This document shows, one piece after another, positions 15,453-63,651 of a DNA stretch of 64,000 nt. Source of the DNA: Candidatus Flexifilum affinis. GTDB lineage: Bacteria > Chloroflexota > Anaerolineae > Aggregatilineales > Phototrophicaceae. Location of the stretch: positions 248,001 through 312,000 of the forward strand of contig JADJPJ010000004.1 of the NCBI GenBank assembly GCA_016713325.1. Reading direction: 5' to 3'. Each line of letters starts with the position of its first letter. The first letter of the stretch is position 1. The position numbers were made by a program, and so were the translations under genes. The notes below the pieces were generated by a model, which searched no databases, was not told where the DNA came from, and saw only the letters and a program-made list of their open reading frames with translations.

Positions 15453-15497
15453 GGTCAGGCTCCCGGCGGACGGCAGCCAGGACCCATCATACCGCGT

Positions 15498-40144: not shown

Positions 40145-40155
40145 ACGGGACGCGG

Positions 40156-41244
40156 ATGGAACGACTTTTTACGCTCAACGAGACGAGGGCGGCGGCGCTC
40201 GGCGCGGGCATCCTGGGGACGGGCGGCGGCGGCAATACCTACATCGGGCAGACCTGGCTGGAGAAGGAACTGCGCGAGCGGGGCACCGCCTGCCGCATTA
40301 TCGACGCCGAGGATGTGCCCGACGACGCGCTTTTCTGCTGCGCCGGCACGATGGGCGCGCCGACCGTGAGCAACGAGAAGCTGCTGCGCGGTGACGAGTT
40401 CGTGGTCGGCGTGCGGGCATTGGAGGAACACCTGAAGGCGCCCATCACGGGCGTGCTGATCAGCGAGATCGGCGGCTCGAACGGGCTCAAGGCGCTGATC
40501 GCCGGGCTTCAGCTCGACGTGCCGGTGGTCGATGGCGATCCGATGGGCCGCGCCTTTCCTGAACTGCAAATGGACACCTTCGCCATTGGCGGGGTGTCGC
40601 TGTCGCCCTTCGCGCTGGTCGACTCGCACGGCAACGTGGTCATCATGGATCACGTGGATTCGCCGCTGCGTGCCGAGAGCTACGCTCGCGCCCTGACCAT
40701 CGAAATGGGCGGCAGCGCCGCGCTGTTGATGCCGGTGGTCACCGGACGCGAAGTCAAGGCGCACCTGATTCGCGGCACGCTGTCGCTGGCCGAGAAGCTG
40801 GGCAGGGCAGTGCTGACGGCACGCGTCGACGGCCAGGACCCGGCGGAGACGGTGGCCGCGCTCGGCAACGGACGGGTGCTGTTCCGCGGCAAGATCGTCG
40901 ACATCGAGCGGCGGACGGTGCAGGGTTTCGCGCGCGGCCGGATGCAGCTGACCGGTTTCGGCGCGGGGGCTGATCAGATGGAGATCGTCTTCCAGAACGA
41001 AAACCTGATCGCCTGGCACAACGGGAAGATCGTCTGCACCGTGCCGGACCTGATCTGCGTGCTCAGCCTGGACGACGGCGAGCCGATCGGCACTGAGTCG
41101 CTGCGCTACGGGTTGCGAGTTGCCGTGATCGGCATGCCAGCGGCGAAAGAACTGAAGACGCCAACGGCGCTAGAAAGCGTCGGGCCGGCGGCGTTCGGCT
41201 ACCCGGAGATCACCTACGAGCCGATGCCGGGGGATTTGCTGTAG
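40156..41244 (+). CDS. DUF917-family protein, paralog 3
   Basis: 362 residues, beginning MERLFTLNETRAAALGAGIL and GTGGGGNTYIG, with MGAPTVSNEKL, SEIGGSNGLKALIA, VDGDPMGRAFPELQMDTF and DLICVLSLDDGEPIGTESLR. By eye it is nearer to paralog 1 (SEIGGSN, GAGILGTGGGGN) than to paralog 2. It is the last gene of the importer-hydantoinase operon, followed by a 574-bp gap holding the second MITE-like element and the ROK promoter. Confidence 0.85.
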   Translation: MERLFTLNETRAAALGAGILGTGGGGNTYIGQTWLEKELRERGTACRIIDAEDVPDDALFCCAGTMGAPTVSNEKLLRGDEFVVGVRALEEHLKAPITGVLISEIGGSNGLKALIAGLQLDVPVVDGDPMGRAFPELQMDTFAIGGVSLSPFALVDSHGNVVIMDHVDSPLRAESYARALTIEMGGSAALLMPVVTGREVKAHLIRGTLSLAEKLGRAVLTARVDGQDPAETVAALGNGRVLFRGKIVDIERRTVQGFARGRMQLTGFGAGADQMEIVFQNENLIAWHNGKIVCTVPDLICVLSLDDGEPIGTESLRYGLRVAVIGMPAAKELKTPTALESVGPAAFGYPEITYEPMPGDLL

Positions 41245-41818: not shown

Positions 41819-43019
41819 ATGAGCACGTTCGTACGCGGCAACAAAGACCTGATTAAAGCCATCAACCGCAACCTGATCCTCAACACGGTCAGGCGGCATG
41901 GCGCCCTGTCGCGCACGCAGATCACCGAGATCTCCCGGCTGAGCGTCGGGGCGGTCTCGCAGATCACCAACGAGCTGCTCAACGACGAATGGCTGCTGGA
42001 AGGCGGCGAGGGCGACTACACCGGGGGGGCGGCGGCAGACGCTGCTGCGGCTCAACCCGGCGGCCGGGTGCGCTGTCGGCGTCAAGCTGATGGAGCGGCG
42101 CATCGTTTGCGCCGTGACCGACCTCGAATCGCGCGTCCTCCACTATTTTGACGTGCCTGTCCCGCTGGAGCAGGACCCCAGTCGGATCGCCGCCGCGCTG
42201 GCCGACGCCGTCGAGGCGGCCGTCGACAGCTCCGGCGTCGACCGTCGCAAGCTGCTGGGCGTTGGTATCGGGCTGGCCGGTGTCATCCACCCGCAGACGG
42301 GCGTGGTCCACTACTCACCCTATTTCGGCTGGCGCGACGTATCCCTGGCCGATCTGGTCCGGGTGCGGCTGCATCTTCCTGTTTACATCGAAAACGACGT
42401 CAACACGCTCACGCTGAGCGAGATGCTCTTTGGCGCCGGGCGGCATATCGACAATTTCGCCGTCGTCACCATCGGGCGCGGCATTGGCATGGGGCTGGTC
42501 GTCAACCAGCAGCTCTACCAGGGTGCGAAGGGCGGCATGGGCGAGCTTGGCCACATCACCTTCGACCCGGCCGGCCCGATCTGCACCTGCGGCAAACGCG
42601 GTTGTCTGGAAGCCTTCGCCGCCGATCCGGCTGTAATTGCCTACGTGCGGCAGTCGCGGTCGGCGCATGACGCTCCGCGGTCGCTGGATGATGTCATTGC
42701 GCTGGCGACTGGCGGCGATACGCTGGCCCGGTCGGCGCTGGCCCGCAGCGGCGAGATCCTGGGAGTCGGCATGTCCACCGTGATCAATCTGTTCTGCCCC
42801 TCGCTGCTGCTGATCAGCGGGGAAGGGGTGGCGGCCGGCGATTTCCGGAACGGCCCACTGCTGGATTCGCTGAAGGCCCACACCTTCAACGGCCTGCTCG
42901 ACGACGTGCAGGTGATCATCGAACCGACCGACGATCAGGCGTGGGCGCGCGGCGCGGCCAGCATCGTCATCAGCAAAGTGTTCGAATCGCCGCTGATCGA
43001 GGCCGGCGCATCGGTCTGA
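41819..43019 (+). CDS. ROK-family transcriptional repressor (frameshifted)
   Basis: The N-terminal winged helix reads MSTFVRGNKDLIKAINRNLI and RTQITEISRLSVGAVSQITN. The frame then breaks in the G run 42023-42029: seven Gs are present, and with six the reading becomes GDYTGGRRQTLLRLNPAAGC and joins the ROK sugar-kinase-like domain in the frame ending at 43019. That domain has YIENDVNTLTLSEMLFGAGR, the zinc motif CTCGKRGCLE and GELGHITFD. XylR/NagC-type ROK proteins repress sugar genes and release DNA on binding the sugar. The sugar transporter and GH31 genes follow directly, so an alpha-glucoside-type ligand is likely. The break is probably a homopolymer error. Confidence 0.85.
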
Positions 43020-43033
43020 GCTTCTTGTTGTCT

Positions 43034-43060
43034 AAGTTTTTTCACTGGATGAAAGAAGAT
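43034..43060 (+). promoter_or_regulatory. Second ROK operator copy before the sugar ABC operon
   Basis: AAGTTTTTTCA, CTGGA and TGAAAGAAGAT reproduce the inverted repeat at 41790-41816 (TTTCACTG.ATGAAA core identical). The right half covers the ribosome-binding region (GAAAGAAG) and its last bases are the ATG at 43059, so a bound repressor could also hinder a local promoter or read-through from the regulator gene. Confidence 0.7.
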
Positions 43061-43952
43061 GGCGTGGCAAACCGGGTGGCACAAATGGAAATGGGTGGGG
43101 TTCTTCCTCGCGCCCAGCCTGATCGGTCTGTTGACGTTCGTCGTCCTGCCTATCGCGTCCTCGTTCTGGATGGCCCTCCAGGATTGGAACCTGCTATCCC
43201 CACCGGAATACGTCGGCATCGCCAACTTCCAGGAGCTGTTCGCCGATACCGCCTTCTGGAGCGCGCTTCGGAACACGCTGGGCTACATCGTCCTCTACAT
43301 TCCGCTGGTCTTTCTGACGGCGCTGCCGGTGGCGGTGCTGCTCAACCAGAAGCTGCGCGGCGTGCTTATCGTGCGCACCGCCACCTATCTGCCGGTCGTC
43401 GCCTCCTGGGTGGTCGTCTCGCTGATCTGGAAGTGGATCTTCAACCCGCAGTACGGCCTGATCAACCCGCCGCTCGGCATCCTGGGCATTCAGATGCCTG
43501 CCTGGCTGTTCGAGCCGGGGAGCGCCCTGGTGGCCATCGTGCTGACCAGTGTGTGGAAGGATCTGGGCTACATCGCCGTCATGCTCCTGGGCGGTTTGCA
43601 GGCCATCGACGAGACGCTGTACGAGGCGGCGCGCATCGACGGGGCCAGTGCCATGCAGCGCTTCCTCCGCATCACGCTGCCGCTGCTCACGCCGACGCTC
43701 TTCTTCGTCGTGATCATCCTGCTGATCAATTCGTTCCAGGTCTTCGATCAGGTCTGGCTGATGCCGATGCGCGACAGCGCCGCCGACCGCCAGGTCGAGA
43801 CGATCGTGACGGAGGTCGTCAAGAACGCGTTCAGCTACAACCGCATGGGCTACGCCTCGGCCATGTCCTGGGTGTTGTTCGTCATCATCTTCGCCATCAC
43901 CTTTGTGCAGCTTCGTCTGCAGAAGCGGTGGGTGCATTATGACGCTGAGTAG
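43059..43952 (+). CDS. Sugar ABC transporter permease, MalF/UgpA type
   Basis: A 297-residue permease with six helices. KWVGFFLAPSLIGLLTFVVL is the first, and the EAA loop is DETLYEAARIDGASAMQRFL. The family context (WNLLSPPEYVGIANFQELF) is typical for CUT1 importers of di- and oligosaccharides. The gene is preceded by a ROK operator and overlaps the second permease gene by 14 bp. No CUT1 ATPase gene is in the operon, so a shared MsmK/UgpC-type ATPase encoded elsewhere is expected. Confidence 0.92.
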   Translation: MAWQTGWHKWKWVGFFLAPSLIGLLTFVVLPIASSFWMALQDWNLLSPPEYVGIANFQELFADTAFWSALRNTLGYIVLYIPLVFLTALPVAVLLNQKLRGVLIVRTATYLPVVASWVVVSLIWKWIFNPQYGLINPPLGILGIQMPAWLFEPGSALVAIVLTSVWKDLGYIAVMLLGGLQAIDETLYEAARIDGASAMQRFLRITLPLLTPTLFFVVIILLINSFQVFDQVWLMPMRDSAADRQVETIVTEVVKNAFSYNRMGYASAMSWVLFVIIFAITFVQLRLQKRWVHYDAE

Positions 43953-44823
43953 ACGCATGCCCCTGGAGACGACGTCGACGACTGGCGCAGCACGTCGCAG
44001 CGCCGGACTGGGCCGGATCGCCCTCACCATCCTCATGATCGCTCTGGTGATCGTCATGGTTGCGCCTTTCGCCTGGATGGTCAGCACCTCGCTCAAGGCG
44101 CAGCAGTACATCCTGGAGACACCGCCGCGTCTGCTGCCGAACCCGGTCACACTGGAGAGCTACACCGGCCTGTTCGAACGCATGAACATCGGCCGGATGC
44201 TGTTCAACAGCACCTTCGTCGCCGTCATGACCACCGCCGGGCAGATCCTGTTCTCGGCCATGGCCGCCTTTGCCTTCTCGCGATTGCAGTGGCGCGGCCG
44301 CAACGTCGTCTTCACGCTCTATCTTGCGACGATGATGGTGCCGTCGGTGGTGCTGGTCATCCCGCAGTTCATCCTCATCCGCCAGCTCGGCTGGATGAAC
44401 ACCTATGCCGCGCTGATCGTGCCGGGCTTGTTCAATGCCTTCGGGACCTTCCTGCTGCGCCAGTCCTTCCTGAGTCTGCCGAAGGACTTCGAAGAGGCGG
44501 CCTATGTGGACGGGGCGAACCCGTTCACGATCTTCTGGCGCGTCCTCCTGCCGCTCAATTTGCCGGCCATCGCGACGCTGGTCGTGCTGAGCTTCATGGG
44601 GTCGTGGAATGCCTATCTGCTGCCGCTGTTCGTCGCCCGCAAGGATGACGTGGTGACGCTGCCCGTGGCTCTGGCCACCTTGCAGGGCGGTCCGCGCGCA
44701 CTCACCGAATGGAATATGGTCATGGCCGGCGCGGTGATCACCGTCCTGCCGATCCTGATTACCTACCTGCTGGCGCAGAAGTGGTTCGTGAGCAGCGCCG
44801 TCGCCAGCGGCATCAAGGGGTAG
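43939..44823 (+). CDS. Sugar ABC transporter permease, MalG/UgpE type
   Basis: A 294-residue second permease: VMVAPFAWMVSTSLKAQQYI is the classical MalG N-terminal segment, the EAA loop is PKDFEEAAYVDGANPFTIFW, and the end FVSSAVASGIKG is the family's usual G-A-V-K-G-like tail. ATG 43939 lies inside the end of the preceding gene. A 177-bp gap with a palindrome follows before the binding-protein gene. Confidence 0.93.
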   Translation: MTLSRRMPLETTSTTGAARRSAGLGRIALTILMIALVIVMVAPFAWMVSTSLKAQQYILETPPRLLPNPVTLESYTGLFERMNIGRMLFNSTFVAVMTTAGQILFSAMAAFAFSRLQWRGRNVVFTLYLATMMVPSVVLVIPQFILIRQLGWMNTYAALIVPGLFNAFGTFLLRQSFLSLPKDFEEAAYVDGANPFTIFWRVLLPLNLPAIATLVVLSFMGSWNAYLLPLFVARKDDVVTLPVALATLQGGPRALTEWNMVMAGAVITVLPILITYLLAQKWFVSSAVASGIKG

Positions 44824-44956
44824 CCCCTCAGCCCCAGGCGAGCCTGCGCGCACCGCCTCGCCCGCATACCCATGCGCGGGGAGAGGGCCTGCCGGAGGGT
44901 AAAGCGTTTTCTGGTTTTGGTTGCGTTCGCAACGAGGTTGCGTGAGTACGTAGCGT

Positions 44957-44971
44957 GAACACGTAGTGTTC
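44957..44971. promoter_or_regulatory. Perfect palindrome upstream of the sugar-binding-protein gene
   Basis: GAACAC, GTA, GTGTTC: a 6-bp perfect dyad about 30 bp before the start codon at 45001, with AAGGGAG as ribosome-binding site between. It may be an operator for a LacI-like or other dimeric regulator. It does not resemble the ROK operators nearby. Confidence 0.35.
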
Positions 44972-45000
44972 AAACAAACATAAGGGAGAAAGAACGTATC

Positions 45001-46221
45001 ATGGCTCGTAAACTGTTTTTGATCGGTCTGCTGCTCCTGGCTATCGGCATCATGCCGGCGCTGGCGCAGGAGACCACTGTCCGTTACTTCACGTTCTCGG
45101 CGGCGCCGGATCATCTGGAAGACCTGGACGCCATCATCGCGGACTTTGAAGCCGCCAATCCCGGCATCAACGTCGAGGTCGAGACCGCGCCGTTCGCCGA
45201 CTACTTCACCCTCCTGCAGGCGGATGTGGTCAGCGGTGACGCGCCCGACGTTTTCGAACTCAACTACGAAAACTTCGTCACCTACGCCGCCAACGGCACG
45301 CTGCTCGACGTCAGCAGCTACCTGAACGCCGACACCCCGTTCTATCCCCGCGCGCTGGAAGCCTTCCAGTATGACGGTGCGCAGATGGCGCTGCCGGCGA
45401 CCTTCTCGACCGTGCTGATGTTCTACAACTCGGATCTGTTCGACGCCGCCGGCGTGGAATATCCGACTGCCGACTGGACCTGGGAAGATGTCCGCGCCGC
45501 CGCCACCGCCATCCGCGCGCTGGGGAGCGACACCTGGGGCGTCTTCTCGCCCGTGCAGTTCTGGGAGTTCTACAAGAAGGCCGGGCAGAACGGTGAATGC
45601 GAGTTCTTCAATGCCGAGATGACCGAGTCGACGATCAACTCCCCCGCCTGCGTGGCGACCCTGGAGACGATGGTCAGCTTCCTGGATGAGGACCTGATGC
45701 CGACCGCCGCCGAGCTTTCCGGCGTCAGCGATGGCGACCTGTTCAACAGCGGCAAGCTGGGCATGCTGGTCACCGGCATCTGGATGTTCGGCGCCTTCGC
45801 CGAAGCGCCCTTCGCCTGGAACGTGGAAGTCGAGCCGATGATGAATCAGCACGCCAACCACTTCTTCGCCAACGGCGTGGCCGTCAGCGCCACCACCGCC
45901 AACCCCGACGCCGCCGCTGCCTGGGCGCAGTTCCTGGCCGGCAGCGAAACCGCCGCCCGCGTGCGCGTCGCCTCGGCGTGGGAACTGCCCGCGCTCGATC
46001 AGCCCGCGTACTTCGAGGAATACCTGACCCTGACGCCGCCGGCCAACCGCGCCGCCGTCTTCGCCGCGCTGGAAAACCCGGTCACCCCGCCGGTCATCGA
46101 GCGCCAGAACGAGATGCAGGATGCCGTCAATGCCGCGCTGACCCGCGTGGTCGATGGCGAAATCTCCGCGCAGGAAGCGCTCGACGGCGTGAAGGCCGAA
46201 CTCGACGCGCTGGTACAGTAG
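45001..46221 (+). CDS. Sugar ABC transporter substrate-binding protein (CUT1 family)
   Basis: A 406-residue extracellular solute-binding protein type 1. The signal peptide MARKLFLIGLLLLAIGIMPA runs on to LAQ without a lipobox cysteine. The mature part shows TTVRYFTFSAAPDHLEDLDA, the DVVSGDAPDVFELNYENF ligand-site region and LPATFSTVLMFYNSDLFDAA. It belongs to the preceding two permease genes and is separated from the glucosidase gene by a strong hairpin, so its message may be more abundant. Confidence 0.92.
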   Translation: MARKLFLIGLLLLAIGIMPALAQETTVRYFTFSAAPDHLEDLDAIIADFEAANPGINVEVETAPFADYFTLLQADVVSGDAPDVFELNYENFVTYAANGTLLDVSSYLNADTPFYPRALEAFQYDGAQMALPATFSTVLMFYNSDLFDAAGVEYPTADWTWEDVRAAATAIRALGSDTWGVFSPVQFWEFYKKAGQNGECEFFNAEMTESTINSPACVATLETMVSFLDEDLMPTAAELSGVSDGDLFNSGKLGMLVTGIWMFGAFAEAPFAWNVEVEPMMNQHANHFFANGVAVSATTANPDAAAAWAQFLAGSETAARVRVASAWELPALDQPAYFEEYLTLTPPANRAAVFAALENPVTPPVIERQNEMQDAVNAALTRVVDGEISAQEALDGVKAELDALVQ

Positions 46222-46244
46222 TTCGATCCGCTTTTCCTCTCCAA

Positions 46245-46270
46245 GGGGCATGGACAATCGTCCATGCCCC
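46245..46270 (+). terminator. Hairpin after the sugar-binding-protein gene
   Basis: GGGGCATGGAC (46245-46255) and GTCCATGCCCC (46260-46270) form a perfect 11-bp stem with loop AATC, followed by TTCTGTT. It resembles the hairpin at 25066 after the other binding-protein gene and could terminate part of the transcripts or protect the mRNA 3' end. Confidence 0.75.
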
Positions 46271-46293
46271 TTCTGTTACCCTAAGGACGCCTC

Positions 46294-48600
46294 ATGACTC
46301 TTGCCATCCATACTCCGTTTGGTCAGGAACACCCCTACGAGCAGGTTCCCGAAGAGCGCTTCCCCCGTCAGCCGCTGGCCGGCCAGCCGTTCACCGTCGG
46401 GATCGTCACCCGTCCGCCCGGTCAGGTTCAGCGCGTGCGCGTGCTGACCTCTGTCGACGGCGTCGATGGGCCGCCGGTCGAAGCGGCTGCGCTCCCCAGT
46501 TGGCAGCAGGAGGCCGAGCACGGGGTCGGAGCGGAATTCCTGGAGCGCATCGTCCGCGTCGAGCAGGATGTCTGGCGGGCGCAGTTGAACGCGCCGGCGC
46601 ATGGGAGCGCCCTCACTTACACCGTCGAAGCCGATGGCATCCCTCAGGGCAGCTACCGCCTGAGCGGTGAGGCCTGGGAGACGGGAGGCGGCACAGTCTA
46701 CGAGGCCGATGGCAGGATGATGGTGAGGCGCGGGAATGCTCACCCCCCGGTCGCGACAGTGAGCGGGGGAAACGGCCTGCTGCCTGCTATTCGCAGCATT
46801 GAATGGCTGACGGAGGCGCCGGGTGGTAAGGCTCGCCGGGTGCGCGTCACGTTTGCCGCACAGCCGGATGAAGCCTTCTTCGGCCTGGGCGAGCGCTACA
46901 ACGCCCTCGACCAGCGCGGCGAGGTGCTCGACGTGCGCCTGTACGAGCAGTACAAGTCGCAGGGCAAGCGGACGTACATGCCGATCCCCTTCCTGCTGTC
47001 GTCGGCGGGGTGGGGCGCCTGGGTCGAGAGCTCTCGCTGGATGCAGTTCGACCTGTGCGCCGGCGCGCCCGACGTCTGGACGCTGGAAGCCGATCTGGGC
47101 GAGGCGGAGTCGCTCACCCTGCATTGGTTTGCCGACGCCGATCCGCTGGCCATCATCCGCGCCTTCAGCGCCAGGACAGGCAAGACGGTCCTGCCGCCGC
47201 TGTGGTCGTTCGGCCTGTGGATGAGCGGCAACGAGTGGAATTCGCAGGCGCGCGTCGAAGCCGAGGTGCAGGCCAGCTTCGAGCATCGCATCACGCCATC
47301 GGTGATGGTGATCGAGGCGTGGAGCGACGAGAACACCTTCTACATCTGGAACGATGCCCAGTACACCCCGAAGCCTGGCGATCAGGCCTTTACCTACAGC
47401 GATTTCACCTTCCCGCCCGACGGCAAGTGGACGGATCCGAAGGCGATGATCGACCGGCTGCACGCGCAGAACATCCGCCTGATCCTGTGGCAGATCCCGG
47501 CGGTCAAGCGCCTGGAGGAGCCGCACGCGCAGCACGAAGCCGACCGGGCGACCTTCGAGGCCAAGGGATACGGGATCAAAGACCCCGACGGATCGCTGCA
47601 CACCATCCGGCCGTTCTGGTTCCGGCACGGCTGGATCTGGGATGTGACCAACCCGGCGGCCCGCGACTGGTGGTTCAACAAGCGCGCCTACCTGGTGGAC
47701 GAGCTCGGCGTGGATGGCTTCAAGACCGATGGCGGTGAGCACCTGTGGAGCACCCAGGTGAGCTTTGCCGACGGCCGCAGCGGCGCGGAGGTGTGGAACG
47801 AGTATCCGAAGTTGTACACCCAGGCCTACTATGACTTTGTCACCGCGCACCGGGGCGGCGACGGATTGACCTTCAGCCGCGCGGGCTTCACCGGCTCACA
47901 GTCCTGTCCGTCACACTGGGCAGGCGACGAAAACTCGACCTGGGAAGCCTTCCGCCATACCATCCTGGGCGGGTTGTCGGCGGCGGCGTCGGGAATCTCG
48001 TTCTGGGGGTGGGATATCGGCGGCTTCAGCGGCGACCTGCCGTCCTCCGAACTTTTCCTGCGCGGGACGGCGATGGCCGCCTTCTGCCCGATCTTCCAGT
48101 ACCACTCGGAGTACAACGCCCACCGCCTGCCGATCAAGGACCGCACGCCCTGGCATATCCAGGAGGCCAGCGGCGACGAGCGGGTGATCCCGACGTTCCG
48201 CTTCTTCACCGACGTGCGCCACAACCTGATGCCCTACATCTGGCAGGAGGCGCAGCACAGCGCCGCGGCAGGCGAGCCGATGATGCGCGCTCTGCGCTGG
48301 ACCGATCCGCGTGCCGGCGACATGCAGTATTTCTTCGGCCGCTCGCTGCTGGTCTGCCCGATCACTGAGCCGGGGGTGACTCAGGCGTCGGTCTATCTGC
48401 CGGAGGGGGTGTGGCACGATCTGTGGACGGGCAAGGCTTACACGGGCGGCGGGACCGTAACGATTGACGCGCCGCTGGACCGGATTCCTGTGTTCGTGCC
48501 AGCCGGTGCGCGTATTCCGGTGCGCTGGGGTGCCAATGGCCTGCTCGGCGAACCGGTGCCGTTGTCCGGCGAGGCCAATGGGGAGTTAGCGTTCGCTTAA
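46294..48600 (+). CDS. GH31-family alpha-glucosidase
   Basis: A 768-residue retaining glycosidase. An N-terminal beta-sandwich contains FFGLGERYNALDQRG, the standard GH31 substrate-loop motif. The barrel contains the nucleophile Asp479 in GFKTDGGEH and the acid/base Asp545 in HWAGDENSTWEAF. GISFWGWDIGGFSG and SPIFQYHSE-like CPIFQYHSEYNAHR segments follow, then C-terminal beta domains. There is no signal peptide, so it acts in the cytoplasm on oligosaccharides brought in by the preceding importer. The KTDGGE form is shared by alpha-xylosidase/alpha-glucosidase subgroups, so xylosidase activity is possible. Expression should follow the ROK-controlled operon. Confidence 0.92.
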   Translation: MTLAIHTPFGQEHPYEQVPEERFPRQPLAGQPFTVGIVTRPPGQVQRVRVLTSVDGVDGPPVEAAALPSWQQEAEHGVGAEFLERIVRVEQDVWRAQLNAPAHGSALTYTVEADGIPQGSYRLSGEAWETGGGTVYEADGRMMVRRGNAHPPVATVSGGNGLLPAIRSIEWLTEAPGGKARRVRVTFAAQPDEAFFGLGERYNALDQRGEVLDVRLYEQYKSQGKRTYMPIPFLLSSAGWGAWVESSRWMQFDLCAGAPDVWTLEADLGEAESLTLHWFADADPLAIIRAFSARTGKTVLPPLWSFGLWMSGNEWNSQARVEAEVQASFEHRITPSVMVIEAWSDENTFYIWNDAQYTPKPGDQAFTYSDFTFPPDGKWTDPKAMIDRLHAQNIRLILWQIPAVKRLEEPHAQHEADRATFEAKGYGIKDPDGSLHTIRPFWFRHGWIWDVTNPAARDWWFNKRAYLVDELGVDGFKTDGGEHLWSTQVSFADGRSGAEVWNEYPKLYTQAYYDFVTAHRGGDGLTFSRAGFTGSQSCPSHWAGDENSTWEAFRHTILGGLSAAASGISFWGWDIGGFSGDLPSSELFLRGTAMAAFCPIFQYHSEYNAHRLPIKDRTPWHIQEASGDERVIPTFRFFTDVRHNLMPYIWQEAQHSAAAGEPMMRALRWTDPRAGDMQYFFGRSLLVCPITEPGVTQASVYLPEGVWHDLWTGKAYTGGGTVTIDAPLDRIPVFVPAGARIPVRWGANGLLGEPVPLSGEANGELAFA

Positions 48601-55187: not shown

Positions 55188-55396
55188 ATTCAGGTTTCCT
55201 CACATATCGTCATGATTCGAACAATGCACTGCTTCGACAGATTCTGACATATGTAAGATATTACGGCAAGCGCGCTAAAGGTCTTCTCATTTGTTGAACG
55301 GCGGCAACCTGTCGCATAATGGTCATGCCCGTGAGCGAAACGCCGTCCAGACTGTCCGAGCCGCCGGCACCTGCTGGCAGGGGATTGATCACGCAT

Positions 55397-56440
55397 ATGA
55401 AGACCACACTTGTGACCGTCGACGACATCCGCCGTATCGTACAGACTGTCGGCATACACCAACTGATGCGCAGCATGATCGATGCTCTGGAACGGGCCTT
55501 CGTCGCCTATGACGAGCGCATCGACATCATCCCACCCCGCGATGGCTTTTCCTACGACGAGCCCTACCCCGGCCTGATCGAGTGGATGCCCTCGCTCAAG
55601 CGCGGCGGCTCGGCTACCCTCAAGATGGTCGGCTACCACCCGCACAACCCGGTTCAGCACGAACTGCCGACGATCGTGTCGTCCATCGGCGTGTACGACG
55701 TCAGCACCGGCCACCTCAAGGGACTGCTCGATGGCACTTTCCTGACCGCGCTGCGCACGGGCGCGGCCTCGGCGCTGGCCAGCAAAGTCCTGGCGCGGCC
55801 GGATTCGCGAATCGTTGGTCTGGTCGGGGCAGGCGCCCAGGCCGTGACTCAGCTTCACGCCCTGGCGACCCTCTTCGAACTGGAACAGGTCTACGTCTAT
55901 GATATCGACTCGTCGGCAGCAGAAAGTTTCATCCACCGCACGGCTTTTCTGAAACTGCCCGTCTCCGTCGTCCGCACCGGGCAGTTGGAGGGCATGGTGT
56001 CGGGTGTGGACATCTTGGTGACGGCCACCTCGACAGAGGTCGGCGCGCCGCCGGTCATCCCCGATGTCGAGACGCGGCCGTGGCTGCATATCAACGCCAT
56101 CGGCTCCGATTTTCCCGGCAAGACCGAGATGCCGCGTGCCCTGCTGGAGCGCGCTTTCGTCGTGCCCGACTTCCCGGAGCAGGCCCAACTGGAAGGGGAA
56201 TGCCAGCAGCTCCCGCCCGATCGGATCGGGCCGGCGCTGCACCTGCTGATCAAGGACCCGGCCGCCTATGCGGACCGGCGGGACCATCTGACGGTCTTCG
56301 ACTCCACCGGTTGGGCGCTGGAGGATGCCGTCGCCGCTCAGTTGATGCTCGATCTGGTGCGCGAACAGGGGTTGGGACGCGATCTGGCCATCCAGCACAT
56401 GCCGACTGACCCCATGAATCCCTACGATTTTTCGCGCTGA
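55397..56440 (+). CDS. Ornithine cyclodeaminase/mu-crystallin family protein
   Basis: A 347-residue NAD(P)-dependent enzyme. The Rossmann motif GLVGAGAQAVTQLHAL is near residue 140, preceded by FLTALRTGAASALASKVLA and followed by DILVTATSTEVGAPPVI and HINAIGSDFPGKTEMP, all family hallmarks. True ornithine cyclodeaminases turn L-ornithine into L-proline plus ammonia; other members are alanine or opine-type dehydrogenases (as SbnB in siderophore synthesis). It is tail-to-tail with the NRPS gene, 14 bp apart. Because that cluster seems to activate proline, supplying proline is an attractive role, but a separate function is possible. ATG 55397 is used. Confidence 0.85.
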   Translation: MKTTLVTVDDIRRIVQTVGIHQLMRSMIDALERAFVAYDERIDIIPPRDGFSYDEPYPGLIEWMPSLKRGGSATLKMVGYHPHNPVQHELPTIVSSIGVYDVSTGHLKGLLDGTFLTALRTGAASALASKVLARPDSRIVGLVGAGAQAVTQLHALATLFELEQVYVYDIDSSAAESFIHRTAFLKLPVSVVRTGQLEGMVSGVDILVTATSTEVGAPPVIPDVETRPWLHINAIGSDFPGKTEMPRALLERAFVVPDFPEQAQLEGECQQLPPDRIGPALHLLIKDPAAYADRRDHLTVFDSTGWALEDAVAAQLMLDLVREQGLGRDLAIQHMPTDPMNPYDFSR

Positions 56441-56454
56441 CGGCTGCCTGAGTT

Positions 56455-59400
56455 TCATGGTGCGCCGTTCCGCCCGAGCAGCGCCTCGACCTCGGCATCG
56501 CTGAGTCCGGCGATCTCGGCCATTACGATGTCTTCGACAGCCTGTGCGAGCTGCGTGACGGTCGGGTTGGCGAAGAAAGTCTCCAGCGGCAGCTTGATCT
56601 CGTAGGCCGCGTTGATGCGCGCGGCGATGCGCACCGCCGGCAACGAGTGCCCGCCCAGCGCGAAGAAGTTGTCGTGCCGGCCGACCTGTTCCAGCCCCAT
56701 CACCGTCCGCCAGATGTCGGCGATCGTTTCTTCGACCTCGCCTTCGGGCGGTTCGAAGCCGGCGGCAGTCGAAGGTACCCCCTGCATATCGCGCAGCGCC
56801 GCCCGGTCGACCTTGCCGCTGGGGGCCAGGGGCATGGCCTCAAGCTGCACGAAGAACGACGGGATCATCACTTCCGGCAGGCGTTCGGCCAGGAAAGCAT
56901 GCAGGTCTTCGCTGCTCAGCGGCTGCTCGGCGACAAAGTAGGCCGCCAACCGCGCCGCCGAGGACGTGTCGGCTGTATCTGGCGCGACCGGCTCGTCGAA
57001 GCCGATCTCGTCCAGGATGCGACGCACGCGGGCCGGATCGATGTCGTCTTCCAGTTCGTCGATGGCTTCCTCGCGCGTCTTGTGCCCCATGCGCACATCC
57101 CAACTGTAGGGAAGCGCGTAGTTGTGAAAGCCGCGCCGCTGCTGGTGGACGAAGATGCCCACCTCGTTGATCAGGCAGTTGGTCGACCGGCCGGTATCCG
57201 CCGGGCGCTGCCACAGGCCGCTCGATTCCAGGAAGGCGTAGACCTCGCGCAGGTCGACATCGCAGTAGCGGTAGAAATCGACAAACGTGATGTCTTCGAA
57301 GCCGCTGCCGGCCCGGAACAGGTCGACCTGGAGCGAGCGTGAGATGGCATCGTCACGCTGGTGGTAGGCACGGCGCATCTGCTCGATTTCGGCGTCGATA
57401 TCGGCGACGCTGAAACTCGGCTGTATGAAGAGCTCCTCCGTCAGGCGCGTTTCGAAGAACTGCCCGCGTGACAGGCCGGTGACGATGGTCGAGATGCCTT
57501 TCTCACGCGCCAGCCCCGCCGCCAGGGTGTAGATCGTCTTGAAGCAGCCGTTGCAGACATTGGCGAACTGCTTCAGGCTGTCCACGAAGATGGCGTTCAT
57601 GTGCGGCGTGGCCCCGTAGACGTGCTCGACGCCGAGGGCCTCGCAGGCGCGCCGGATATTGTCCTTGGCCGTGTCGGAGATGTAGCCGTTGTCCAGCGTG
57701 AAGGCCAGCGGTCGAAGGCCCAGCCTGACCAACTGGTAGAGCATGTAGGTGCTGTCCTTGCCGCCGCTCAGCAGCGCGACCACGTCGTACGTCCCGGTCG
57801 ACCGCGCCCGGATCTGCGCGGCCAGCGCCTCCAGCTCGTCGAACGGCTTGAAGTACTGCGCGGCCCGGTCCTCGTAGCCGTCGTAGGCCGCGCAGGTGCT
57901 GCACAGCCCTGACGCGTCGAAGCGCACGCCGGGGAAGTTGGACGGCAGGCCGCAGCGACGGCAGCGCATCACCGATTCCTGCTCCCGCTGCCGGGGCGAT
58001 GTCTGGGGCTGACGTACCTCGACCACAGCCTCGCGAATGGCCGGGTGGCTGAGCAGGGTCGCCTCGACTTCGCCCAGCTCGATGCGCGCCCCGCCGATCT
58101 TCACCTGCTGGTCGGCGCGTCCCAGGAATTCCAGCCGGCTGTCGTCCGTCCAGCGGGCCAGATCGCCAGTGCGGTACCTGCGCGCGCCGGGCACAAACGG
58201 ATCGTCGACGAAGCGTTCGGCGGTCAGCTCCGGTCGGTTGAAGTACCCGCGCGCCACGTTAGCTCCGGCCAGTGCCATTTCGCCGATCACGCCGGGCGCC
58301 GCCGGCATGCCGAAGCGGTCCAGCACGTATACCCGCATGTTGTCCGACGGCGTGCCGATCGGAACTGAGGCCGCTCGGTCGCGCTCCGGATCGAAGGTGT
58401 GGATCATGCAGGCGACCGTCGCCTCGGTCGGGCCGTATTCATTGTGCTGCGCCAGCCGCCCCCCGGTTTTCTCGTCAAACGCCCGCGCCAGCTCCGTCTT
58501 AAAGTCTTCGCCGCCGACGATCAACTGGCTGATGCGCGTATTGGACAGGTCCATGTCGCGCACCAGCGCCATGTGTGAGGGTGTCAGCTTGACGACGTCG
58601 ACCTGATTCTCGGCGAAGATGTCGCGCACGACCGTGCCGCGTTTGCCGGCGTCGGGATAGATGCGGATGGTCCCGCTGCTGATCAGCGGTACGAAGATCG
58701 AGGTCACGGTCAGATCGAAAGCCATCGACGAGAAGAAGGCGAAGGTGGTGGGTTGCCCGCCCGTGTAGAAGCGCTGCGCCCAGTTCAGATAGTTGGCGAG
58801 GCCGCCGTGCTCGACCATGACGCCTTTGGGCGTCCCGGTGCTGCCGGAGGTGTAGATGACGTAGGCGAGATCGCCGGGTCCGGCTGCGGCCGGCGGATTG
58901 GTTCTCGGCGCCAGCGTCCGACTCACGGCGACAGGCGGCAGATCGGCTTCCAGGACGACGGCGGCCGCGTCGCGGAAGCGATCGGCAAGGTGCGGCTGCG
59001 TGACCACGACAGGCGTCCGGCCCAGGTCGTTCAGGATGACGCGGGCGCGTTCCGGTGGGTGCAGCGGGTCGAGCGGGACGTAGGCTGCGCCGGTCTTGAG
59101 GATGGCCATCAGCGCGACCACCAGTTCCAGGCTGTGATCCATGCACAGCGGGATCAGTGTACCGACCCCTGCGCCGGCCGCGCGCAGATCGACCGCCAGC
59201 GCATTGGCCGCGCCGTTCACCGCCGCGAAGGTCAGCGTCTGCTCGCCAAGCGAGGCGGCGATGTGGTCGGGCGTGTGTGCCGCCTGCGCCTCGAACCGCT
59301 GGACCACCGTCTTCGCTTCAGGATCGGGGTGGGCGGTCGCGTTGAAATCCTCGATCAGCCGCGCCTGCTCGTCCGCGGTCAGCAAGTCGATCCGGCCAAT

Positions 59401-60669
59401 CTCGATCTCCGGGTCGGCCAGGCAGGCGTCGAACACGGCCAGGAAGTGCCGGATGGCGCGCGCGCGGTCGGTGTCGGAAAAGGCATGCAGGTTGAAGTCG
59501 AAATCCAGCTCGAACGCGCCGCGACGGGGGATGTCATGGACTTGCAGGCGCAGGATGTGGCCGCTGTCGTTGTGCCCGGCGTGCAGCCAGGCGGCGCGCG
59601 CCGGCATCCCGGCGAACGGCCCGAAGCGGACGGTGATGAAGTTTAGCACGGCGCCGGCGGTGCGGTTGAGCGCGGCGCTGCCCACGCCCGGCGCCAGATT
59701 CTGGATGGCGCGGATGTTCCCGGCCGCCGCCTGCCTGAACAGCGAAGCGAAGGTCTCACCCGGATTCAACGCCAGGTCGATTGCCAGCACTTCGATGAAC
59801 AGGCCGGGCATGGCGCGATATTCTGGCGTGGTCCGGTTGGCATAGGGCACGCCGAGGCGCACCCGGTCGGCTTCGCCCAGGCGCAGCAGGAACGCGCCGA
59901 AGAGGGCATTGAAGAGGTTGGCGTAGGTCAGATCCTCGCTCAGCCCGCGGAACCCCGGCCGTGACGCCAGCGCCCGCAGACGCTCCATGCGCGCCTCGTC
60001 CAGCACGACGATCTGCCGGGTCGCCGCGGTGGTGCCGCCGGTATCGCGCCCGCGGTACAGGCGCAGCGGCGGCGGCGGATCTTCAGCCCGAGTCTGCCAG
60101 AAGGCGTCGGCGTCGCGGATGGTCGCTCGCTCATCCGCTTCGTGCGCGACGTAGCGCTCGAACGGCGGCACGTCGATAGACGAAACCGGCTCGCCGGCGG
60201 CCAGCCGCGTGTAGACATCGCTCATCAACTGGTAGATCAACTGCGCCGAGGTGACATCCATCAGGATGTGGTGCTGGTTGAGGAACCACGCCCAGCGCGT
60301 CGGGCCGAGCCTGAGCAGGGCGCTGTCGTACAGGCCGGCATCGAGGCGGAACTGTCGCGCCATCCGGCGGTCGATCCAGGCCTCAAGCGCGGCATCCGGG
60401 TCGGGCGACGTCGACAGATCGACCGTCTCCAGGTCGGCCGGTTGCACGTCGAGCACGACCTGAACCGCTTCGCCGTCGATCTCGCGGATTACCGTCCGCA
60501 GCAAGTCCGACGAGGCCACGAGAATATCGAAGCCACGGCGGAAAAGTCTTTCATCCAGCAGACCCTCGACGACAAAGACGAAGGGCATGTTGTAAAGCGG
60601 GGCATCGGGCGTGAGCCGCTGGCCCAGCCACATCAGTTCCTGCTCGCGCGTCAGGTTGTGCTGCGGCAT
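56455..60669 (-). CDS. Nonribosomal peptide synthetase C-A-PCP with a PP-loop ATPase inserted in the A domain
   Basis: 1404 residues. The condensation domain (about 1-440) has HHILMDV, with the catalytic histidine present but the usual last Gly changed to Val. The A-domain core follows: YVIYTSGSTGTPKGVM (A3), NEYGPTEATV (A5), YRTGDLARW (A7) and QVKIGGARIELGEVEATLL (A8). From about residue 901, MRCRRCG and CSTC form a zinc ribbon, then ALLSGGKDSTYML (968-973 PP-loop) and NVCNGCFK: a complete ATP-pyrophosphatase of the WbpG/PseA amidotransferase or sulfur-transfer type. The A domain resumes near 1238 with LPEVMIP (A9) and LAPSGKVDR (A10), and a PCP has Ser1342 in FFALGGHSL. Pocket residues read by hand: D-L-T-K-I-G-E-V-A-K, near the asparagine code. 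No thioesterase is present. Confidence 0.92.
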   Translation of the reverse strand: MPQHNLTREQELMWLGQRLTPDAPLYNMPFVFVVEGLLDERLFRRGFDILVASSDLLRTVIREIDGEAVQVVLDVQPADLETVDLSTSPDPDAALEAWIDRRMARQFRLDAGLYDSALLRLGPTRWAWFLNQHHILMDVTSAQLIYQLMSDVYTRLAAGEPVSSIDVPPFERYVAHEADERATIRDADAFWQTRAEDPPPPLRLYRGRDTGGTTAATRQIVVLDEARMERLRALASRPGFRGLSEDLTYANLFNALFGAFLLRLGEADRVRLGVPYANRTTPEYRAMPGLFIEVLAIDLALNPGETFASLFRQAAAGNIRAIQNLAPGVGSAALNRTAGAVLNFITVRFGPFAGMPARAAWLHAGHNDSGHILRLQVHDIPRRGAFELDFDFNLHAFSDTDRARAIRHFLAVFDACLADPEIEIGRIDLLTADEQARLIEDFNATAHPDPEAKTVVQRFEAQAAHTPDHIAASLGEQTLTFAAVNGAANALAVDLRAAGAGVGTLIPLCMDHSLELVVALMAILKTGAAYVPLDPLHPPERARVILNDLGRTPVVVTQPHLADRFRDAAAVVLEADLPPVAVSRTLAPRTNPPAAAGPGDLAYVIYTSGSTGTPKGVMVEHGGLANYLNWAQRFYTGGQPTTFAFFSSMAFDLTVTSIFVPLISSGTIRIYPDAGKRGTVVRDIFAENQVDVVKLTPSHMALVRDMDLSNTRISQLIVGGEDFKTELARAFDEKTGGRLAQHNEYGPTEATVACMIHTFDPERDRAASVPIGTPSDNMRVYVLDRFGMPAAPGVIGEMALAGANVARGYFNRPELTAERFVDDPFVPGARRYRTGDLARWTDDSRLEFLGRADQQVKIGGARIELGEVEATLLSHPAIREAVVEVRQPQTSPRQREQESVMRCRRCGLPSNFPGVRFDASGLCSTCAAYDGYEDRAAQYFKPFDELEALAAQIRARSTGTYDVVALLSGGKDSTYMLYQLVRLGLRPLAFTLDNGYISDTAKDNIRRACEALGVEHVYGATPHMNAIFVDSLKQFANVCNGCFKTIYTLAAGLAREKGISTIVTGLSRGQFFETRLTEELFIQPSFSVADIDAEIEQMRRAYHQRDDAISRSLQVDLFRAGSGFEDITFVDFYRYCDVDLREVYAFLESSGLWQRPADTGRSTNCLINEVGIFVHQQRRGFHNYALPYSWDVRMGHKTREEAIDELEDDIDPARVRRILDEIGFDEPVAPDTADTSSAARLAAYFVAEQPLSSEDLHAFLAERLPEVMIPSFFVQLEAMPLAPSGKVDRAALRDMQGVPSTAAGFEPPEGEVEETIADIWRTVMGLEQVGRHDNFFALGGHSLPAVRIAARINAAYEIKLPLETFFANPTVTQLAQAVEDIVMAEIAGLSDAEVEALLGRNGAP

Positions 60670-60905
60670 TACTGACTCTCTAAATAATGGACAATCGCAT
60701 TGATCGTCGAGAAATTCTCAAAAACGACATCTTCAGGCGGTACGTCCACCCCGAACCGCTCCTGGATGAAGGCCAGCAGGCGGATCACGTTCAGCGAATC
60801 CAGCAGGCCGCTCAGCAGCAGGTCGTCGTCATAGCCGATGGCCTTGTTCATGCCGAAGACCAACCGGTTCTGGATGAATTCGCGCATCGCTTCGTGTCTG
60901 TCCAT
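60669..60905 (-). CDS. Stand-alone acyl/peptidyl carrier protein
   Basis: A 78-residue carrier protein; the phosphopantetheine serine is Ser37 in LLSGLLDSLNVIRLLAF. Its stop overlaps the NRPS start by one base (TAATG), and the adenylation gene ends 16 bp upstream, so all are cotranslated. A discrete carrier between an adenylating enzyme and a dehydrogenase matches the proline-loading carriers of pyrrole pathways (PltL, PigG, RedO) and AnaD of anatoxin synthesis. Conversion to the holo form would need a PPTase such as that at 14.8 kb. Confidence 0.9.
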   Translation of the reverse strand: MDRHEAMREFIQNRLVFGMNKAIGYDDDLLLSGLLDSLNVIRLLAFIQERFGVDVPPEDVVFENFSTINAIVHYLESQ

Positions 60906-60921: not shown

Positions 60922-62502
60922 TCATTCAGCATGCAGCGCCGCGACATGCAGGGCTTTGCGATCAATCTTGCCCGTGCCGGTCCGCGGCATTGCTTCCAGA
61001 AAGTAGATGGCCGCCGGCACCGCGTAGACCGGCAGACGGTCGCGGAGATAAGCGATCAGGGTCTCAGCGCTTACCTGGGCGTTCGGCTTGAGCATGACCG
61101 CGCCGGCCAGCACATCGCCTTCCTCGCGCCGGATGACGAAGGCCGCGCCATGCTCGATGGCCTCGTGCGAAGAAAGGGCGGTATCAACCTCGGCCAGTTC
61201 GACCCGGAAGCCGCGGATCTTCACCTGATGGTCCTTGCGCCCCAGGAATTCCAGCAGCCCGTCGGCGTTCTCGCGCACCAGGTCGCCGGTGCGGTAGTAC
61301 ACCGCTTCAAAGTCCGGGAAAACCTCGCGGCGGTAGAAGGCCCTGGCGTTCAGATCCGGCCGGCGCCAGTAGCCGCGCATCATGGTCGGGGTGCGCACCA
61401 CCAGTTCGCCCACCGCTCCTGGCGGGACCGGCTGGTCCTCGGTGTCGACGATCAGGCTGTCGGCATTGTCCCAGATCACGCCGAGCGGGATGTTGTCCCA
61501 GTCCGCCGGCCACGCAGTCGGCGGCGGCAGGTGGTAGTAGGTGCACTGGTTGACCTCGGCTGGGCCGTACACGTTGCTGAAGCGGGCCTGGGGAAGCCGA
61601 TCCATCAGGGCGCGCAGATGCCCCAGCGGGAAGGGTTCGCCGCCGTACAGCACCCAGCGGATCGCGCTGAGATCGCGTTCTTCCAGCACGCCGCGGGTGA
61701 TGAGCTGAATCAGCGCGAACGGCACAGAGTACCAGATGGTCAGCCGGTCGGCTTCGATCAGTTTGGCCAGGTTGACCGGGAAGAGGGTGTAGGCTTCGGG
61801 GATGATGGTCGTCGTCGCGCCGCACAGCACAGCCGTCAGATAGTCGAAGGTGGACATGTCGAAGTGCAGAGGTGAGTGATTGCTCAGCCGGTCGTCGTGG
61901 TTCACGTCGTAGGTCGCCGCCGACATGCGGGCGTAGCTCAGGCCGCTGCTGTGCGTGTGCATGATGCCCTTCGGCTTGCCCGTCGAGCCGGAGGTGTACA
62001 TGATGTAAGCCAGGTCCTGTTCCATCAGCCGGACCGGCGAGAGCAGCCCTGGCGGCTGCGCCTCGACCTCCTGCCAGGAGACGGACCGCACGCTGCTCGC
62101 CGTCGTCGCTTGAGTACCGACGACGAAGCGCAGAATGGGCGTCAGGCCGGCCGCCTCGTCCAGCACCTGTGCCCGGCTGTCCTGGGCGATGATGCCGGTG
62201 AGCTGGCAGTCCTCGATAATGCTGACCAGCCGCGTGACCGGCGACTTCGGATCGAGCGGGATGTAGGCGCCGCCGGCCATCATGATCCCGTATATGGAGA
62301 TGGCCGTCTCCAGGCTCTTGTCCAGGAACACGCCAACCCGGTCGTGCTTGCCGATGCCCTGCTCCTGCAGCGTCCGCGCCAACTGGGCCGCCCGGCGCGC
62401 CAGATCGGCGTAGGTCAGTGCCTGGTTCTGGAAGCGAAACGCGGGATGATCGGGGTAGCGCAGAGCCGATTCTTCGAGCGCCTGGTGCAGCAGATAGATC
62501 AT
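60922..62502 (-). CDS. Stand-alone amino-acid adenylation enzyme, probably prolyl-AMP ligase
   Basis: A 526-residue adenylation domain without carrier: YIMYTSGSTGKPKGIMHTHS (A3), NVYGPAEVNQCTYY (A5), YYRTGDLVRE (A7), QVKIRGFRVELAEVDTAL (A8) and RTGTGKIDRKAL (A10) with the catalytic lysine. Pocket residues aligned by hand to GrsA are D-M-F-Y-L-G-V-Q-C-K. This shares D, Y, L, C and K with the proline code D-L-L-Y-L-A-L-V-C-K of the pyrrole pathway enzymes, and other positions are mostly hydrophobic. Together with the carrier and dehydrogenase genes it suggests loading of L-proline. It starts 3 bp after the dehydrogenase stop. The reading of the code is manual and needs alignment. Confidence 0.82.
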   Translation of the reverse strand: MIYLLHQALEESALRYPDHPAFRFQNQALTYADLARRAAQLARTLQEQGIGKHDRVGVFLDKSLETAISIYGIMMAGGAYIPLDPKSPVTRLVSIIEDCQLTGIIAQDSRAQVLDEAAGLTPILRFVVGTQATTASSVRSVSWQEVEAQPPGLLSPVRLMEQDLAYIMYTSGSTGKPKGIMHTHSSGLSYARMSAATYDVNHDDRLSNHSPLHFDMSTFDYLTAVLCGATTTIIPEAYTLFPVNLAKLIEADRLTIWYSVPFALIQLITRGVLEERDLSAIRWVLYGGEPFPLGHLRALMDRLPQARFSNVYGPAEVNQCTYYHLPPPTAWPADWDNIPLGVIWDNADSLIVDTEDQPVPPGAVGELVVRTPTMMRGYWRRPDLNARAFYRREVFPDFEAVYYRTGDLVRENADGLLEFLGRKDHQVKIRGFRVELAEVDTALSSHEAIEHGAAFVIRREEGDVLAGAVMLKPNAQVSAETLIAYLRDRLPVYAVPAAIYFLEAMPRTGTGKIDRKALHVAALHAE

Positions 62503-62505
62503 GGT

Positions 62506-63651
62506 TCAGCTCCCCAGCAGACCGGCGATCAGGTTGCGCTGAATGTCCGAGGTGCCGGAGTAGATCACCCCGCCCATCGCGTCGCGCAGATCGCGTTCCA
62601 CTTCGTAGTCGGTCAGGACGCCCTGCCCGCCGTGAATGCGGATGGCATCTTCGCTGTTGCGCAGGAAATTCTCGCCGATCACCAGCTTGGCCATGGCCGC
62701 GTCCAGCGTCGCGTCATCGCCCTGGTCCAACCGCCAGGCGGCTCGGTAGAGGAAGTGGCGCGCGGTCTCCAGCCGGACTTTCATGTCTGCCAGCCGGTTG
62801 GTCACGGACTGGTAGCGGCTGATCGGCTGGCCGCCGACCTCGCGACTGTTCACGAAGCGGACCGTCTCGTCGAGCTGGCGCGCCATCGATCCGACATGGC
62901 TGGCGAAGATAAAACTGCGCTCGTACTGCATGGCGGCATTAAAGATGCTGGCGCCGGCGCCTTCCGGCCCGAGGCGGTCATCGTCCGCCACGAAGACGTC
63001 CTCGAAGGTGATCTCGCCCATCGGGTTGGTGCGCAGACCCATCTTGCCGCGCGGCGCGCCCTGCGTCACGCCTTCGGCCCGTGCGTCGACCAGAAAGGCG
63101 GTGATCCCCCAGCGGCCGCGCGCCGGGTTGACGGTGGCGAAGGCCAGGATCAGATCGGCGATCGGCCCCATGCCAATGTAGACCTTCTCGCCGGAGAGCC
63201 GGTAGCCGCCCTCGACTTTGCGCGCCACCGTTTGCAGGGCGAAGGCGTTGGAGCCGGAGTCGCGTTCGGTCATGCCGTGCGCGCCGATCATGCGCCCGTC
63301 GAGCAGCGGGGGCAGGTAGCGCATTTTCTGGGCCTCGGTGCCGAAATGGAGGATCGGCTCCTGGACCGCCCACATCTGACCGTTGACCGCCAGCGTGAAG
63401 CCGTTGTCCGTGCAGCCGTAGCCGAGTGCCTCCATGGCGTGGATGGTCGTCACCATGTCCAGGCCAGATCCGCCGTACTGCGACGGGATGTACAAGCCGA
63501 GAATGCCTTTGGCGGCGCCCTTCTGCCAGGCATCGCGCGGGAATATCCCCTCGCGGTCGCGGGCGATTACGTCTTCGCAAAGCTGATCGCGGGCGAACTG
63601 AAGCACATCATCCCAGAGCTGCTGTTGAGCCGGTGTGCAGCCAAAGTCCAT
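62506..63651 (-). CDS. Acyl-CoA-dehydrogenase-like flavoprotein, probably prolyl-carrier dehydrogenase
   Basis: 381 residues of the acyl-CoA dehydrogenase fold: FAD-binding GAHGMTERDSGSNAFAL, IHGGQGVLTDYEVERDLRDA and the C-terminal YSGTSDIQRNLIAGLLG. The glutamate of MQYERSFIFA is residue 244, where, as I recall, the anatoxin enzyme AnaB and the PigA/RedW/PltE group keep their catalytic base. As first gene of the minus-strand cluster, directly before the adenylation and carrier genes, it most likely oxidises carrier-bound proline to pyrroline or pyrrole-2-carboxylate. An ordinary fatty-acid role is less likely given this context. Confidence 0.85.
   Translation of the reverse strand: MDFGCTPAQQQLWDDVLQFARDQLCEDVIARDREGIFPRDAWQKGAAKGILGLYIPSQYGGSGLDMVTTIHAMEALGYGCTDNGFTLAVNGQMWAVQEPILHFGTEAQKMRYLPPLLDGRMIGAHGMTERDSGSNAFALQTVARKVEGGYRLSGEKVYIGMGPIADLILAFATVNPARGRWGITAFLVDARAEGVTQGAPRGKMGLRTNPMGEITFEDVFVADDDRLGPEGAGASIFNAAMQYERSFIFASHVGSMARQLDETVRFVNSREVGGQPISRYQSVTNRLADMKVRLETARHFLYRAAWRLDQGDDATLDAAMAKLVIGENFLRNSEDAIRIHGGQGVLTDYEVERDLRDAMGGVIYSGTSDIQRNLIAGLLGS

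Follow-up and report, generated by a model that had tools for sequence, protein, structure and literature searches.

Introduction

Adenylation (A) domains of nonribosomal peptide synthetases (NRPSs) that are split between motifs a8 and a9 by a methyltransferase, oxidase or ketoreductase have been described in TioS, KtzH and IndC (PMC11355689, PMC8949500). Thioamide-containing nonribosomal peptides are called exceedingly rare, and CtaC, the thioamide synthetase of closthioamide, is called the first of its kind for a nonribosomal peptide; it is an adenine nucleotide alpha hydrolase with a [4Fe-4S] cluster, thioamidates a peptide bound to a peptidyl carrier protein (PCP) and uses C154, C157 and C284 together with the PP-loop residues D77/S78 (PMC6772006). 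In Thermotoga LarE the cysteines of a CXXC-C arrangement bind the cluster needed for sulfur transfer (PMC9283937). Here we describe an NRPS gene of Candidatus Flexifilum affinis (contig JADJPJ010000004.1), encoded on a stretch of 64,000 nucleotides (the window), in which a zinc-ribbon PP-loop ATP-pyrophosphatase domain interrupts the A domain. No A domain interrupted by a PP-loop domain was found in the searchable literature, with a prior listing possible in a 2020 catalogue of interrupted A domains.

Domain organization

A single minus-strand frame (60669-56455), open over 1404 codons, encodes the NRPS; an earlier note on this DNA gave the span 56455..60669 exactly and left the strand unstated. 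Profile and homology searches assign the 1404 aa product (P0001) the layout C-A[PP-loop]-A-PCP, all parts lying on the minus strand. The condensation (C) domain covers residues 6-440 (59350..60654) and contains HHILMD; its best Pfam stretch is 6-317 and its end was placed by us. The N-terminal part of the A domain, up to A8, follows at residues 453-889 (58003..59313), with AMP-binding at 459-810 (Pfam) and TIGR01733 at 480-883 (409 bits). Residues 901-1228 (56986..57969) form the inserted zinc-ribbon PP-loop domain of about 330 aa, delimited by a profile match and a predicted model. The remainder of the A subdomain, which includes A9/A10, lies at residues 1239-1298 (56776..56955, profile and model), where the AMP-binding_C match at 1239-1286 begins only at profile position 27 of 76. 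The PCP domain was placed at residues 1315-1378 (56536..56727) by profile search.

The space between the A-domain profile matches is occupied by a match to TIGR03573. The translation contains A8 (QVKIGGARIELGEVEATLL) and A10 (LAPSGKVDR) as well as CRRC/CSTC, SGGKDS and CNGC, all of which had been pointed out in the earlier note together with the proposal that a PP-loop ATP-pyrophosphatase domain splits the A domain between A8 and A9. This proposal is borne out, as both A parts are present. The NRPS of the window thus has an interrupted A domain: a single frame encodes the A motifs up to a8, a foreign domain and the A motifs from a9 onwards.

In the predicted model, a check named beforehand, the insert forms a domain of its own between two strands of the A subdomain. 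The modelled A domain superposes across the insert on EntF (505 residues, 1.9 Å) and on TioS 5wmm (471 residues, 2.0 Å), and the A fold is therefore predicted to be kept around a separately folded insert. The insert itself is modelled with a zinc ribbon and a PP-loop fold, as in the sugar amidotransferases of TIGR03573.

Distribution of the fusion

In a homology search covering proteins of 0.55-1.75 times 1404 aa (about 772-2457 aa), 7993 candidates were scored, and at least 1990 of them match the insert at E<=1e-5. Motifs and cysteines were counted in 120 proteins among the matches listed, the window protein included. In all 120 the A3 motif is followed by a zinc ribbon and SGG[KR]D, and the A8 pattern was matched in 116; a Condensation match is present in many of the fused proteins and in some there is none.

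With each species represented by one genome, a scan yielded 315 encoded relatives, and locus counts given here refer to the best 80 of these 315. At 80/80 loci the insert is preceded, with no break in the reading frame, by an A3 or A8 motif (by pattern, A3 in 76 and A8 in 59, with several frames ending at contig ends). This search for the same fusion in other genomes had been set as a test beforehand. Its result rules out a chimera or misjoin, against which the intact frame had already been held to argue. That the PP-loop protein is always a separate gene is likewise ruled out; the separate relatives are a more distant sister family and proteins of Streptomyces.

Within the sampled family of Zobellia (locus L044), 17 of 199 genomes match at E<=1e-40, and in each of these the match lies in a single frame of 1373-1417 aa. 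In the class to which the Anaerolineae relative L001 belongs, four of 199 genomes match, three with frames of 1406-1932 aa and one with a 379-aa frame, which is a standalone sister. Judged by the printed organism names, the 50 fused rows of our tree (the window and 49 of the 80 loci) span 14 phyla; cultured carriers of the fusion include Zobellia, Arenibacter, Leptolyngbya and Bradyrhizobium. A further 436 matches are near the insert's own length; the 120 inspected look like fragments or split genes, because A8 upstream or A-C-terminal/PCP parts downstream are mostly retained. The fusion is a widespread family and no rarity.

Conserved residues and family assignment of the insert

Seven cysteines are invariant in the insert of the 120 listed proteins. 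Four belong to the zinc ribbon (C903, C906, C923 and C926; 57892..57963, minus strand) and three form a CxxC...C triad, consisting of C1039 and C1042 of the CNGC motif (57544..57555, minus strand), predicted as ligands 1 and 2 of a [4Fe-4S] cluster, and of C1165 (57175..57177, minus strand). The PP-loop SGGKDS (residues 968-973; 57751..57768, minus strand) is equally kept in 120/120. The third cysteine lies 123 residues beyond the pair in the window insert and 127 in CtaC, and by this CtaC-like spacing C1165 is predicted to be the third cluster ligand, equivalent to known ones. The CNGC pair of the earlier note is therefore present, but makes up only two thirds of the invariant three-cysteine site.

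Residues 902-1221 match TIGR03573 (WbuX, N-acetyl sugar amidotransferase) with 114 bits and an E-value of 7e-33. The window insert, scoring 114-119 bits, stays below the curated cut-off of 203.2 bits. PF02540 and PF01171, two of the families suggested in the earlier note, gave no match in the window protein at E<=1 in profile searches; the third suggestion was a WbpG-type family, and the nearest named family is WbuX, at a score below the cut-off. Plain membership in WbuX is ruled out by this score and by the lack of HisH/HisF partners.

A profile of 50 inserts matches the [4Fe-4S] enzyme LarE (8cnz, E-value 7e-9), with CYNC of mmLarE aligned on the CNGC of the insert, and hhalign places CGLC of TtcA (one TtcA was used) on the same motif with a probability of 83%. 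TIGR00269 has matches in 0/6 genomes scanned for TtuA, which thus stands outside the alignment. The insert has the PP-loop SGGxDS and a CxxC at the cluster position, as expected of the sulfur transferases. Its triad resembles that of sulfur-inserting [4Fe-4S] PP-loop enzymes, a likeness that makes sulfur more probable than ammonia but is no proof.

One reading takes the insert as catalytically dead, with purely structural metals, or as the catalyst of some other ATP-dependent reaction such as a ring closure. The chemistry of the superfamily is diverse, but the retention of S968-G-G-K-D-S973 and of all seven cysteines leaves this reading with little probability.

Substrate code and proposed reaction

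The code of the A domain reads D652 L653 T656 K694 I717 G719 E744 V752 A753. Its nine positions follow D[LM]TK[IV]GEV[GA] in 119/120 listed proteins, the remaining one being partly unreadable, and D-L-[TS]-K-[IV]-G-E-V-[GA] in the window and in 42/42 aligned loci (of the 80). The code is like that of asparagine, which we take to be DLTKLGEVGK or DLTKVGEVGK; the aspartate code departs from it at the seventh position. The A domain is thus predicted to be specific for asparagine. Because the code is asparagine-like throughout, the side-chain amide of asparagine is the likely target: a fixed residue with a primary carboxamide is paired with an enzyme type that adenylates a carbonyl or amide oxygen. 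A side-chain target also fits the fused versions without a Condensation match.

Our preferred reading, held tentatively and at somewhat less than an even chance, is that the insert is a built-in thioamide synthetase whose target is the side chain of asparagine on the PCP. The A domain would load asparagine onto the PCP, the arm of which would visit the insert and bring the primary carboxamide with it. The insert would adenylate the side-chain amide, and sulfide held on the predicted [4Fe-4S] cluster would replace the amide oxygen, giving a thioamide. The C domain would afterwards join the modified asparagine to an upstream acyl group. Sulfide might come from the general cysteine desulfurase of the cell, because no recurrent gene for sulfur supply was seen nearby: a scan for sulfur-supply and glutaminase neighbours (95 proteins, of 115 listed from 255 unassigned open reading frames) matched 108 families, and no cysteine desulfurase or sulfur carrier was among those with at least two members, while AsnB had two. 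An amidine or thioamide made on the carrier-bound amino acid, as proposed in the earlier note, is still the best class of explanation.

Two other products are conceivable. The insert might dehydrate the side-chain amide, with loss of AMP and no nucleophile, to give a nitrile, PCP-bound beta-cyanoalanine, an outcome we regard as improbable. It might also thioamidate the backbone, at the amide that the C domain makes, and not the side chain; CtaC does this in closthioamide, with the peptide bound to a PCP (PMC6772006). A backbone thioamide accords with the C domain in many fused proteins, but some fused versions have no Condensation match and the near-invariant Asn-type code would be left unexplained; its chance appears slim.

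Standalone relatives, phylogeny and the amidine alternative

For L103, a standalone relative of 338 aa, there are 2870 matches at E<=1e-15. Ribbon, PP-loop and triad were found by pattern in 118/120 of the relatives listed, and all seven cysteines in 30/30 aligned relatives drawn from these 120. Part of this sister family (L103, L104, L116 and L117) matches DUF7411, and its members adjoin AMP-ligase and AsnB genes; an AsnB-type protein adjoins the standalone sister in all four loci read (L103, L104, L114/L116 and L115/L117). One reading is that AsnB makes the carboxamide in the sister pathway and that asparagine supplies it in the fused enzyme. AsnB is near only 5/80 fused genes, one match being weak.

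Three genomes of the class of L001 contain a cassette of AMP-ligase, AsnB, standalone triad PP-loop protein and DUF362 protein (L103:16-5127, L116:5020-11094 and L117:3237-10377); the DUF362 protein has a TAT signal in two genomes, and a glycosyltransferase intervenes in L117. The Bradyrhizobium jicamae genome of L009 carries, besides the fused gene, a second cluster (L104:236-9057) with AMP-ligase, standalone triad PP-loop protein, AsnB and acyl-CoA dehydrogenase, together with a C-A-PCP that is uninterrupted and has a code other than that of Asn. In a Streptomyces plasmid operon (L083:11190-17882) the PP-loop domain heads a protein annotated as condensation-domain-containing, outside any A domain, and the operon also encodes AsnB (one gene from the PP-loop gene), an uninterrupted A-PCP and an amino acid racemase. 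The PP-loop relative of Streptomyces L084 stands alone.

On the tree, a split (97/91) separates the fused inserts, the Streptomyces proteins and the standalone sisters from the sugar enzymes, with the exception of L109, a triad-bearing sugar enzyme on a very long branch. The fused group costs two label changes, several branches being very long, and may have one origin.

The main rival to a thioamide is an amidine. An ammonia-dependent amidotransferase of the WbpG/WbuX kind would adenylate the side-chain amide of Asn-PCP, and ammonia would displace AMP to give 3-amidinoalanine, which might then cyclise to an aminopyrimidine; the triad of cysteines would have a structural role or sense redox state. 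It is the main rival because of two points. In sequence and fold the insert is nearest to the WbuX sugar amidotransferases. L109, an N-acetyl sugar amidotransferase beside HisH and HisF (L109:1995-4537), has the CxxC...C triad, which weakens the triad as a divider of sulfur and ammonia enzymes. In addition, AsnB stands beside triad-less PP-loop proteins in the sugar clusters L085, L086 and L107; this speaks against the carboxamide role suggested above for AsnB, which could instead serve as an ammonia donor, hence for an amidine, and the amidine gains slightly at the expense of the thioamide. Against the amidine stand the score of 114-119 bits at a cut-off of 203, the absence of the triad from seven of the eight sugar-cluster WbuX proteins checked, and the tree, which sets the triad PP-loops apart from the sugar enzymes save L109. 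BLAST with two HisH and two HisF queries found these partners at 0/80 fused loci, several of them short; in Roseovarius (L081) HisH/HisF occur about 12 kb from the fusion, as part of a polysaccharide operon that includes an amidotransferase of its own. Taken together we consider the amidine unlikely, if still a serious contender.

Gene neighbourhood

On the minus strand of the window an acyl-CoA dehydrogenase (62506..63651; relatives at 40/80 loci), a free-standing adenylation enzyme of 526 aa (60922..62502; its community at 44/80) and a free-standing carrier protein of 78 aa (60669..60905; relatives at 36/80) precede the fusion in this order. A protein of the ornithine cyclodeaminase/mu-crystallin family (55319..56440, plus strand; relatives at 20/80) is convergent with the NRPS. 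Among the 51 loci flanked by 6 kb or more on either side, the dehydrogenase occurs 28, the free A enzyme 34, the PCP 27 and the cyclodeaminase 17 times. The dehydrogenase is nearest to the prolyl-PCP dehydrogenases PigA (367 bits) and RedW (362 bits), both below cut-off, and from this likeness we guess at a proline-derived pyrrole starter. The upstream acyl group would then perhaps be pyrrole-2-carbonyl, made by the A/PCP/acyl-CoA dehydrogenase set.

A HupE/UreJ_2 protein (PF13795) is encoded at 46/80 loci (36/51), in 11 phyla by names and in both orientations, and a TonB-dependent receptor community at 26/80, both as raw counts. HupE/UreJ proteins have been described as nickel transporters (PMC4771312). 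A glycosyltransferase community is found at 15/80 loci, so that a link to sugars is not wholly absent. Because acyl-CoA dehydrogenase, A enzyme, PCP, HupE/UreJ transporter and TonB receptor recur across phyla, the neighbourhood suggests a metallophore, in which the thioamide would serve as a metal ligand of a small molecule. HupE is absent from the window and from the Chloroflexota kin L001-L004, and the window is without the second synthetase module that follows the fusion in kin (with a thioesterase in L027); both facts speak against this part of the proposal. The full chain, from a new class of NRPS domain, an Fe-S thioamide synthetase built into an Asn A domain, via carrier-bound thio-asparagine to an undescribed cross-phylum family of sulfur-donor metallophores, perhaps copper or nickel carriers, is accordingly rated as doubtful.

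A small conserved protein of about 155 aa (L059:11461-11928) has relatives at 18/80 loci and lies between the fusion and the TonB-dependent receptor in Bacteroidota; the members scanned match nothing in Pfam or NCBIfam. The window also contains a phosphopantetheinyl transferase-like stretch (14811-15476, minus strand), about 41 kb away from the NRPS and akin to those of related clusters. Elsewhere on the plus strand lie two adjacent tandem S-Me-THD_N/C genes (39062-41244) and a row of ROK protein, ABC-transporter membrane and solute-binding proteins and GH31 glycosidase (42090-48600), probably an ordinary sugar-use operon.

If the preferred reading of a side-chain thioamide is true, a thioamide-forming domain is embedded in the A domain at no fewer than 80 species-genome loci and can be recognised by sequence alone. 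ATP-dependent amide chemistry would join the domains that interrupt A domains, a portable module for modifying side-chain amides would be at hand, and the loci would hint at a small molecule that is widely shared, has yet to be explored and may have a part in metal handling.

Comparison with known systems

With TioS, KtzH and IndC the window NRPS has in common the insertion site, the retained A fold and the expected action on a PCP-bound residue. It differs in the PP-loop ATP-pyrophosphatase type of its insert, which is not named for those systems in the excerpts used (PMC11355689, PMC8949500). WbuX/WbpG (TIGR03573; 8wex) share zinc ribbon, PP-loop and overall fold, whereas the window insert lies below the family cut-off and, as detailed above, differs in HisH/HisF partners at the 80 loci and in the triad missing from 7/8 sugar enzymes. 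The [4Fe-4S] PP-loop sulfur transferases TtcA, TtuA, NcsA and LarE share the CXXC-C logic, with CxxC at the aligned position in TtcA and LarE, but act on tRNA or a nucleotide and not on carrier-bound amino acids, and their sequence similarity is much lower. The standalone sisters L103, L104, L116 and L117 have all seven cysteines in a separate gene, and the NRPS beside L104 is without an Asn-type code. CtaC, compared by its published residues, shares the PP-loop, a CxxC...C triad of similar spacing and the thiotemplated setting (PMC6772006); it is a separate protein working on a beta-alanine backbone, whereas the window insert is embedded in, and tied to, an Asn-type A domain.

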